From contig NZ_JAGYJN010000005.1 of NCBI RefSeq assembly GCF_018402035.1, positions 62,001 to 126,000 on the forward strand: a DNA stretch of 64,000 nucleotides, given 5' to 3'. The notes beneath the pieces are model-generated. The model saw only the letters and a program-made list of their open reading frames with translations, searched no databases and had not been told where the DNA came from. Within the stretch, counting starts at the first letter, position 1, and each line of letters begins with the position of its first letter. This document shows, one piece after another, positions 29,919 to 48,494 of the stretch. The DNA comes from Roseicyclus sp. (lineage in GTDB: Bacteria > Pseudomonadota > Alphaproteobacteria > Rhodobacterales > Rhodobacteraceae). The translations under genes were made by a program, and so were the position numbers.

Positions 29919-30770
29919 ATGCGCATTGATACCGTGATCATGGTCGATTGGTCGGCCCGCTCTGCCCCTTCGCCTGCGCGCCCGACCAAGGACGCAATCT
30001 TCGTGGCCGAGCATACGGGGCGCGAGGGACATGTCACCTATTGCCGGACCCGCGACGCGGCGACAGAGCATCTGACAGCGCGGTTTCAGGCCGCACTTGC
30101 CGAAGGGCGGCGGGTGCTCGCGGGTTTCGATTTTCCTTTCGCCTATCCGGCGGGTTTTGCCACGGCGCTGACCGGGCAGGACGACCCCTTTGCGGTTTGG
30201 GAATGGTTGGCCGCAGCGGTCACGGATGACGCGCGCAATGCCAATAACCGCCTCGATGTCGCGGATCAGATCAACGCCCGCTTTGACGCGCCGGGGCCGT
30301 TCTGGTCGCACCCCACGGGCAAGACCCCCACCCATGTACCCTTTCGCAAACCGCCCCATCTGGGCTTTCCCTTCGCCGAGCGGCGGCAGGTCGAGATGGT
30401 GGCGAAAGGGGCGAGCACCTGTTTTCAGCTTTTCGGCAATGGCGCTGTCGCAAGCCAGACGCTTGTGGGCCTGCCACGGCTGCACGCGCTCAAGCAACAT
30501 TTCGGCGCGGCGCTGGCGGTGCGTCCGTTTGAGGATCGCCCGGCCCCGATCCTTTTGGCGGAGGTTTACCCTTCGATCCTGTCAGCCGAGATCAAGCGCC
30601 GCCAACGCCCCGGCGAAATCCCCGACGCCGCACAGGTGCGCGTCTTGGCCCAAGCCTTTGCCGCGCTACCGCCCGACAGGCTGGATGCCATGCTGCGCGA
30701 AGGTGATCGCATCGAGGGCTGGATTGCCGGGCTAGGTCACGCCGATGAGATGATCGCTGCCTTGGGCTAG
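29919..30770 (+). CDS. Conserved hypothetical protein
   Basis: MRIDTVIMVDWSARSAPSPARPTKDAIF...; long ORF with good codon phase; family not identified with confidence. Confidence 0.75.
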   Translation: MRIDTVIMVDWSARSAPSPARPTKDAIFVAEHTGREGHVTYCRTRDAATEHLTARFQAALAEGRRVLAGFDFPFAYPAGFATALTGQDDPFAVWEWLAAAVTDDARNANNRLDVADQINARFDAPGPFWSHPTGKTPTHVPFRKPPHLGFPFAERRQVEMVAKGASTCFQLFGNGAVASQTLVGLPRLHALKQHFGAALAVRPFEDRPAPILLAEVYPSILSAEIKRRQRPGEIPDAAQVRVLAQAFAALPPDRLDAMLREGDRIEGWIAGLGHADEMIAALG

Positions 30771-30822
30771 GGGCGGAAAACCCGGGTTTTCCCGCCAGAA
30801 AAACACGTGTTTTTCTGCCCCC
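30771..30822. repeat. Palindrome array (2 units, 23-bp spacing) filling the gap between convergent genes
   Basis: AAAACCCGGGTTTT (30777-30790) and CAGAAAAACACGTGTTTTTCTG (30796-30817), bracketed by AGGGGC/GCCCCCT. Confidence 0.85.
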
Positions 30823-39904: not shown

Positions 39905-39961
39905 GGTGCGCCTACGGGCGCACCATTGACGGGCAGAGGTGCGCCGAGGGGCGCACCCTAC
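39901..39961. repeat. 61-bp nested inverted repeat GTAGGGTGCGCC...GGCGCACCCTAC between convergent genes
   Basis: 12-bp perfect outer arms (39901-39912, 39950-39961) plus internal GGCGCACC/GGTGCGCC pair. Confidence 0.9.
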
Positions 39962-45660: not shown

Positions 45661-47226
45661 ATGACCACCGACAAAAACCGCGTCTTGATTTTCGACACCA
45701 CGCTGCGCGATGGCGAACAATCGCCCGGCGCCACGATGAGCCATGATGAAAAGCTGGAGATTGCCAGCCTTTTGGACGAGATGGGCGTCGATATCATCGA
45801 AGCGGGCTTTCCCATCGCCTCGGAAGGCGATTTTGCCGCTGTCTCCGAAATCGCCAAGCAGACGCGCAATGCCACGATCTGCGGTTTGGCGCGCGCGAGC
45901 TTCAAGGATATCGACCGCTGCTGGGAGGCAGTGCGCCACGCCAAATCCCCGCGCATCCATACCTTTATCGGCACCTCGCCCATGCACCGGGCCATTCCCA
46001 ACCTGACGATGGATCAGATGGCCGAGCGCATCCACGACACCGTCAGCCATGCGCGCAACCTGTGCGACAATATCCAATGGTCGCCGATGGATGCGACGCG
46101 GACCGAGTGGGATTACTTGGCCCGCGTGGTCGAGATCGCGATCAAGGCGGGTGCCAGCACGATCAACATCCCCGACACGGTGGGCTATACTGCGCCGGTG
46201 GAAAGCGCCGATCTGATCCGCCGCCTGATCGCCGAGGTGCCGGGGGCCGAGGATGTGATCTTCGCCACCCATTGCCATAACGATCTAGGCATGGCGACCG
46301 CCAATGCGCTGGCCGCTGTCGCCGGTGGCGCGCGCCAGATCGAATGCACGATCAATGGCTTGGGCGAGCGCGCGGGCAACACCGCGCTGGAAGAGGTGGT
46401 GATGGCGCTGAAAGTGCGCCATGACATCATGCCTTATACGACGGGTATCGACACGACCAAGATCATGCATATCTCGCGCCGGGTCAGCACAGTGTCGGGT
46501 TTCGCGGTGCAGCCCAACAAGGCCATCGTCGGCAAGAACGCCTTTGCGCATGAATCGGGCATCCATCAAGACGGGATGCTGAAATCAGCCGATACCTTTG
46601 AGATCATGCGCCCAGAGGATGTGGGCCTGTCGGGCACCTCGCTGCCCTTGGGCAAGCATTCGGGCCGCGCGGCGCTGCGTGCCAAGCTCAAGGAGTTGGG
46701 GTTCGACATGATCGACAACCAACTCAACGATCTGTTCGTGCGCTTCAAGGCGCTGGCCGACCGCAAGAAAGAGGTGTTCGACGACGATCTGATCGCGCTT
46801 GTGACCGATGCGGCGGCGGCAGGCACCAAGGATCATCTGGAGTTGAAATTCCTGCGCGTGATCTGCGGCACCGAAGCACCGCAATCGGCCGACATCACCT
46901 TGCGGGTGGGCGAGAAAGACGCCCAAGCCACCGCGCAAGGCGATGGGCCGGTTGATGCGGCCTTTAACGCGGTTAAGGCGCTTTATCCCAACGAGGCGGT
47001 ATTGCAGCTTTACCAAGTGAACGCGGTCACCGAAGGGATGGATGCGCAAGCCACCGTCACCGTCCGCGTCGAAGAAGGTGGGCGCATCGCCACGGGTCAA
47101 GCCGCCGATACCGATACCATCGTGGCCAGCGTCAAGGCCTATGTGAATGCGCTGAACCGGTTGATCGTGCGGCGCGAAAAGCTGGGCTCGGACCGCAAGG
47201 AAGTGTCCTACAAAGACGCGGGCTAA
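45661..47226 (+). CDS. leuA: 2-isopropylmalate synthase
   Basis: VLIFDTTLRDGEQSPGATMSHDEK; regulatory LeuA C-terminal domain. Confidence 0.96.
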   Translation: MTTDKNRVLIFDTTLRDGEQSPGATMSHDEKLEIASLLDEMGVDIIEAGFPIASEGDFAAVSEIAKQTRNATICGLARASFKDIDRCWEAVRHAKSPRIHTFIGTSPMHRAIPNLTMDQMAERIHDTVSHARNLCDNIQWSPMDATRTEWDYLARVVEIAIKAGASTINIPDTVGYTAPVESADLIRRLIAEVPGAEDVIFATHCHNDLGMATANALAAVAGGARQIECTINGLGERAGNTALEEVVMALKVRHDIMPYTTGIDTTKIMHISRRVSTVSGFAVQPNKAIVGKNAFAHESGIHQDGMLKSADTFEIMRPEDVGLSGTSLPLGKHSGRAALRAKLKELGFDMIDNQLNDLFVRFKALADRKKEVFDDDLIALVTDAAAAGTKDHLELKFLRVICGTEAPQSADITLRVGEKDAQATAQGDGPVDAAFNAVKALYPNEAVLQLYQVNAVTEGMDAQATVTVRVEEGGRIATGQAADTDTIVASVKAYVNALNRLIVRREKLGSDRKEVSYKDAG

Positions 47227-47228
47227 GG

Positions 47229-47310
47229 GAGGCGGGCGAAAAACTGCAGTTTTTCGCATGGAAAACTGGGGTTTTCCGACCCGGAAATCTCGAGATTTCC
47301 GGCCCCCCGC
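47229..47310. repeat. Palindrome array (3 units, 22-23-bp spacing) between leuA and mreB
   Basis: GCGAAAAACTGCAGTTTTTCGC (47236-47257), GGAAAACTGGGGTTTTCC (47260-47277), CCGGAAATCTCGAGATTTCCGG (47281-47302), G-rich/C-rich flanks. Confidence 0.9.
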
Positions 47311-47378
47311 CCGGCGGAAAGGCGCTTGTCCCTTTTGGATCGAGGCCTTTACGCGGCTTGCTGCCAAGGCCTATATAG

Positions 47379-48494
<1,116 letters not shown>

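Follow-up and report, generated by a model that had tools for sequence, protein, structure and literature searches.

Tandem palindromes behind stop codons in Roseicyclus: a dispersed, polar element resembling REPs and BIMEs

The closest described relatives of the element reported here are the REPs and BIMEs, which are intergenic, lie behind genes and often near stop codons, and are tied to RAYTs and to GTAG/CGTC tags (PMC2817692, PMC3733652, PMC12306157). REPs occur mainly behind convergent or co-directional genes (PMC3733652), and those contained in the BIMEs of Stenotrophomonas have preserved their palindromy via complementary changes (PMC2817692). Stalling of ribosomes has been reported for REPs close to a stop codon (PMC12306157, citing its reference 17).

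The triplet found behind leuA in a 64,000-nt stretch of Roseicyclus sp. DNA (the window; Table 1) is one copy of a dispersed, polar, REP/BIME-like multi-palindrome element. The earlier note on this DNA had described three palindromes between leuA and mreB, centred at 47246.5, 47268.5 and 47291.5 and therefore 22 and 23 bp apart, and a check of the letters confirmed both the palindromes and their spacing; the reality of the triplet is near certain. Units 1 and 3 span 22 bp and are fully palindromic, with 11-bp arms; in unit 2, perfect 7-bp arms surround a non-palindromic 4-nt core. The G-rich and C-rich flanks, absent from the earlier note, are part of the element and a general feature across arrays. 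Also absent from the earlier note is a second array, of two units, at 30773-30817 of the window. It takes up the space between two convergent genes whose ends, at 30770 and 30823, are 2 and 5 nt away. Palindromes with arms of at least 11 bp number four in the window, three of them within its two arrays, compared with 0-1 in five Markov simulations. The start of mreB may be an ATG near 47457.

Table 1. Coordinates of the leuA-mreB copy, its flanking genes and the second array of the window
Feature	Position	Strand	Sequence	Description and basis
leuA, upstream gene	45661..47226	+		2-isopropylmalate synthase; NCBIfam NF002087, 833.8 bits; ORF
leuA stop codon	47224-47226		TAA	
G-rich left flank	47227..47235		GGGAGGCGG	from stop codon to array; letters
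Unit 1	47236..47257		GCGAAAAACTGCAGTTTTTCGC	A-type palindrome, outer GCG clamp, core TGCA
Unit 2	47260..47277		GGAAAACTGGGGTTTTCC	A-type, middle slot, GG clamp, core TGGG, imperfect centre
Unit 3	47281..47302		CCGGAAATCTCGAGATTTCCGG	A-type with AAATC arm, CCG clamp, core TCGA
C-rich right flank	47303..47312		CCCCCCGCCC	letters
mreB, downstream gene	47430..48494	+		NCBIfam PRK13927, 510 bits
Second array, unit 1	30773..30794		GCGGAAAACCCGGGTTTTCCCG	
Second array, unit 2	30796..30817		CAGAAAAACACGTGTTTTTCTG	

A pattern search of the 3.03-Mb genome to which the window belongs revealed many such palindrome pairs 22-24 bp apart. A covariance model (R1) was built from 17 arrays of this genome, two of which are those of the window, so that the window scores (61.8 bits and an E value of 1.4e-15 for the leuA copy) are partly obtained by construction. 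When the best 150 candidates per genome were scored, R1 produced 107 matches in this genome, amounting to about 44 distinct arrays, with a best E value of about 1e-15. With the same sampling, all 12 congeners searched were matched, ten of them 28-134 times and two only a few times (10 in G012 and 2 in G008). G023, a member of another genus of the same family, gave 51 matches, and the remaining genera of the family in this search 0-3 weak ones each. In a wider run on 397 genomes representing 396 genera of the family, with the best 15 candidates of each, the element was dense only in its own genus, G023 and G264, and about 13-14 further genera showed a few weaker look-alikes, some of them with other arms. 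Such a model search of relatives had been proposed in the earlier note, together with the possibility that the spacing and shape occur at chance frequency genome-wide, which is contradicted by the number of arrays in the own genome and by the genus-limited density.

The gap downstream of leuA was inspected by eye in about 50 named Rhodobacteraceae and contained single GC-rich hairpins or nothing similar, and R1 identified no array in 80 named Rhodobacteraceae loci (best match 12 bits, E 0.96). A sequence-blind scan for tandem palindromes in the named Rhodobacteraceae loci yielded 3 pairs in 580 kb versus 1.3 in simulations, so that arrays at high density are confined to a small number of genera. 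The search of Rfam returned two chance-level matches far below the gathering score and no known RNA family, and a plasmid search with the leuA array gave no match. Six viral contigs contain the core palindrome; R1 matches them weakly, and none clearly holds such an array. In the open-access literature, an exact-string search found no paper naming these palindromes, nor were reports of tandem palindromes in Rhodobacteraceae found. The element, with about 40 copies per genome in one genus and its allies, is an unusual relative, apparently undescribed so far, of the known bacterial palindrome repeats.

The grammar of the element was derived from 135 arrays of six congeners, with spacing counted in the 94 arrays of the first three genomes. 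Two types of unit exist, the A-type (GGAAAAC-N4-GTTTTCC and kin) and the T-type, which is its inside-out form (CGTTTTCC-N4-GGAAAACG); they have in common their shape and not their half-site sequence. The typical copy, of 68 bp, consists of an A-unit (GCGGAAAAC-N4-GTTTTCCGC), a second A-unit with a different clamp (CGGGAAANC-N4-GNTTTCCCG) and a T-unit (GCGTTTTCC-N4-GGAAAACGC), which abut at a 23-bp pitch and are capped by a G-run and a C-run; from the stop codon to the beginning of the nearest stem there are typically about 4-5 nt at the A end, and about 0 or 5 nt at the T end. The distance between unit centres is exactly 23.0 bp in 165 of about 184 cases. Arrays hold two to six different palindromes, three in fixed order being the commonest arrangement (AAT 55, AA 27, AAA 24, AAAT 14, AT 8, others 7), and 51 of the 55 AAT arrays are identical in length. 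In arrays of three or more units, the T-unit occupies an end in 71 of 72 cases, and 78 of the 79 arrays that bear a T-unit have just one. Cores, arms and clamps vary widely among arrays, the clamps depending on the slot (CG outside, GGG in the middle). Adjacent units carry the same clamp in 5 of 184 cases, compared with 33.8 ± 5.1 after shuffling, and cross-pairing between neighbours is lowered as a result. A palindromic central tetranucleotide is present in 205 of 266 even-centred units, and the cores belong to a restricted set (TCGA/TGCA/CCGG/GCGC). The left flank is G-rich and the right flank C-rich, on the stop side as well as on the far side, and above the post-stop background. A closing outer stem that would form a multi-way junction was considered and discarded, as the flanks pair in 52% of cells, not above shuffled partners.

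With respect to genes, which were called by a simple codon-score script, 66 of the 135 arrays lie between convergent and 63 between co-directional pairs, two between divergent pairs and four inside a called ORF; the latter four are probably wrong ORF calls. The background in stretches of the own genome is 374 co-directional, 86 divergent and 86 convergent pairs, so that convergent gaps are in excess (P about 1e-15) and divergent ones are lacking (P about 1e-6), with orthologous arrays counted separately and not independent. The enrichment at gene 3' ends that the earlier note had suggested looking for is therefore evident, with 129 of 135 arrays in convergent or co-directional gaps, as in REPs and BIMEs, and the array edge at most 10 nt from the facing stop codon in 112 of 135. 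The most frequent stop-to-stem distances are 3-6 nt where an A end faces the stop, and -1 to 1 or 5 nt where a T end does, so that a predicted hairpin would lie inside the 15 nt described for REPs. The A-A-T polarity is random relative to transcription (19 T-proximal and 18 T-distal), and in a complete congener no clear replichore polarity or clustering near ori or ter was observed.

No functional theme emerged from ten genes next to arrays of the window and the own genome; the adjoining genes that could be named include leuA, mreB, dnaN, purD, pyrG, deoC and that of purine nucleoside phosphorylase. An array lies directly behind dnaN in several congeners (L245 in the own genome). The dnaN site is apparently used in G023 as well (L177, identified from the matching gene end only), and a site shared across genera must be older than the genus or have been used twice. 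GTAG is present at 16 of 79 T-ends and at none of 189 A-ends, several of these being orthologous and not independent, and TAG is the stop codon of the gene in 15 of the 16; CGTC is present at 3 of 189 A-ends. Often the G of the TAG stop codon comes from the T-unit (GTAG-CGTTTTCC), for example in L243, L261 and L264.

At the leuA-mreB gap, a three-unit array occupies the same place in several congeners. It is partly decayed in G007 (the closest relative), G009 and G012. G002 and G011 have a rearranged or divergent version, and G010 and G023 lack it, with other sequence in the gap. An orthologous gap devoid of palindromes in close relatives, which the earlier note had regarded as an argument against its own reading, is thus not the general situation, since the array is kept in most congeners, and its decay in G007 and loss in G010 indicate that it is not essential at leuA. 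For 26 of 37 own arrays, the orthologous gene of G006 and/or G011 is likewise followed by an array, the sampling of G011 being incomplete. Orthologous units have swapped letters between species and mostly are still palindromic. In the first three-genome comparison, stems showed 36 symmetric double changes versus 15 one-sided ones, and further comparisons behaved alike, with symmetric changes outnumbering one-sided breaks overall; the stem counts carry a bias, as intact stems were the feature by which the arrays had been detected. Loops, which are free of that bias, showed 31 double versus 42 single changes. In the closest genome pairs, stems are nearly unchanged while loops change. In an alignment of 41 rows, 92-99% of cells are paired in the three hairpins and the covariation score is 0.237, compared with 0.084 in shuffled and at most 0.085 in slid alignments, a test that is partly circular since the rows were picked as palindromes. 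No comparable signal distinguishes the putative outer stem in this alignment. The observation that shape is conserved while sequence varies by compensating changes, made in the earlier note for one locus, is therefore borne out between species: what is conserved is the perfection of the stems, the pitch and the place behind stops, and not the letters.

The resemblance to BIMEs and REPs covers the dispersed intergenic palindromes, the short arrays, the position behind stops in convergent and co-directional gaps, and the palindromy kept through complementary changes, as noted for Stenotrophomonas (PMC2817692). However, RAYT (PF01797) was found in 0 of 13 genomes of the genus by a search that was positive in five named control genomes, including those of E. 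coli and Caulobacter; a highly diverged or lost RAYT is still conceivable. In addition, the constant GTAG/CGTC tag is absent from the stem foot, G.T pairs are very rare in the stems, and the roughly 44 arrays are varied in their letters and not near-uniform palindromes in high copy. The strict 23-bp pitch, the A-A-T order and the abutting stems also differ from BIMEs, which consist of spaced alternating REPs. The statement in the earlier note that the triplet is unlike simple REP copies is in agreement with these data on RAYT, tag and uniformity. Because the location is that of REPs and BIMEs and these other features are not, the element is proposed to work like a BIME, and membership is not claimed. 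The GTAG excess at T-ends is a hint of REP ancestry and suggestive only. With REPINs (PMC3116915) the element has in common that it is a composite palindromic unit and possibly replicative, but REPINs are near-identical REP doublets accompanied by a RAYT, and here two to six different palindromes occur without one. The template-switched RNA stems of PMC8794818 show similarly perfect stems and multi-base compensatory changes, although those are RNA genes and the element is a short dispersed 3'-end unit with a loop centre that is also symmetric.

The explanation we prefer, to which we give slightly less than an even chance, is that of a hairpin element of BIME-like kind at gene 3' ends, which would serve as punctuation in both directions and whose arms would be kept perfect partly by template switching. 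It is based on the facts that stems outlast loops, that the clamps of neighbours differ and that arrays lie behind stops. From these sequence patterns we infer that transcripts of either strand would fold in the cell, just past the stop codon, into a row of 9-bp hairpins. These could impede read-through into the adjacent gene, which is often convergent, and protect the 3' end from exonucleases. The hairpins may also act on the terminating ribosome, as do E. coli REPs within 15 nt of the stop. Template switching during replication would probably restore or change the paired arms together, with selection keeping the stems; that the loop centre is symmetric too suggests a copying process of this symmetric sort (PMC8794818). 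Several observations count against this reading. A loop needs no symmetry and yet the central 4 nt are palindromic; minimum-free-energy folding predicts some unit-unit cross pairing in arrays, including the window copy; and a polarity that is random to transcription and replichore would not be expected of an RNA signal. Nor do the data support selection on the sense RNA, as there is no G.U excess over A.C in 63 co-directional arrays (17 vs 26, P 0.22, few departures giving low power). Of the roles suggested in the earlier note, the RNA multi-hairpin element, if read as RNA only, lacks a sense-strand G.U bias. Transcriptional punctuation fails in the strict sense of an intrinsic terminator.

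The element has indeed in common with intrinsic terminators that its hairpins lie at gene 3' ends, nearly flush with stops and between convergent genes. Nevertheless, at least four T in the 8 nt after the array are found at only 4 of 136 ends, where the mean is 4.3 C, which largely refutes a canonical U-tract terminator (Rho-assisted termination lies outside that test). Moreover, the array has several hairpins with A/T-tracted stems and is the same on both strands. Canonical terminators occur elsewhere, in 9 of 32 non-array convergent gaps of the own genome, and GC-rich hairpins lie behind leuA in many other genera, as judged by eye. Tandem conventional intrinsic terminators are therefore very improbable. 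A mobile origin is a stronger contender, although still unlikely: the arrays would be non-autonomous elements or their remnants, REPIN/MITE-like, spread by a hairpin-recognising single-strand-DNA transposase, with stop-side insertions tolerated and any function secondary or absent. The polarity, the fixed length and unit order, the orientation random to transcription and replication and the genus-level spread would fit such an origin, and the GTAG excess recalls the GTAG-tagged REPs that supply stop codons (PMC3733652). On the other hand, no Y1/RAYT protein was detected in the 13 genomes of the genus, GTAG is missing at most T-ends, copies are not near-identical as after recent transposition, and sites are common to several species, the dnaN site apparently even to another genus.

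Two-fold symmetric sites at a strict pitch, with restricted cores, convergent enrichment and no RNA-strand bias, could also form a duplex-DNA array for a dimeric protein (gyrase/NAP-like or a roadblock), relieving supercoils or blocking RNA polymerase between convergent genes. This is improbable, as A- and T-units are alike in shape and not in half-site sequence, half-sites match (205 of 266) far more often than the roughly 0.3 expected if they were independent (our estimate from core frequencies), and double swaps between species are symmetric. A plain sequence-specific version, the repeated protein-binding array of the earlier note, leaves the symmetric swaps of both half-sites unexplained. 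These double changes, present even in the loop, are what would be expected if the palindromes were a functionless mutational by-product, made and perfected by replication template switching, a process able to create and fix stems (PMC8794818). Such an origin is, however, highly improbable, since the pitch, the unit grammar, the clamp alternation, the docking at stops and the stems outlasting loops in close pairs are left unexplained. A broader proposal, which we find possible but doubtful, is that of a geometry-defined class of elements, in which a polar, stop-docked row of 2-3 abutting perfect palindromes at a 23-bp pitch depends on a non-RAYT mechanism, its letters being rewritten symmetrically in stem and loop by palindrome conversion and its position and shape lasting for the age of the genus or longer.

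The element, with tens of copies per genome, shared sites and a dozen species, offers a natural test bed for two open questions: whether template switching or selection underlies the joint change of stem-paired bases, and what role post-stop palindrome arrays have in transcription, at mRNA ends and in translation. The range of REP/BIME-like elements moreover widens to a group whose genomes yielded no RAYT (PF01797, 13 genomes of the genus), so that another maker or keeper must exist.

Other palindromes were noticed along the way. Two similar ones, GGTGCGCC-N4-GGCGCACC, lie 33 bp apart at 39905-39957 of the window. The own genome also contains another family, GAATTTTCGTACGAAAATTC and its inside-out form CGAAAATTCGTACGAATTTTCG, mostly paired at a centre spacing of 27-29 bp (L138:19110-19162, L147:189-239, L132:3605-3661, L141:19529-19554). 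In G078 (L278) and G111 (L277), arrays of 3-4 palindromes with other arms (GAAATC, GGAATTC) are located around 1440-1570, that of L277 directly preceding a canonical-looking terminator. Finally, the named Rhodobacteraceae MAG D8_MAG_00063, from another genus, holds three abutting palindromes of unrelated sequence at a 24-bp pitch near a possible stop codon (L064:2686-2769), in the same architecture.
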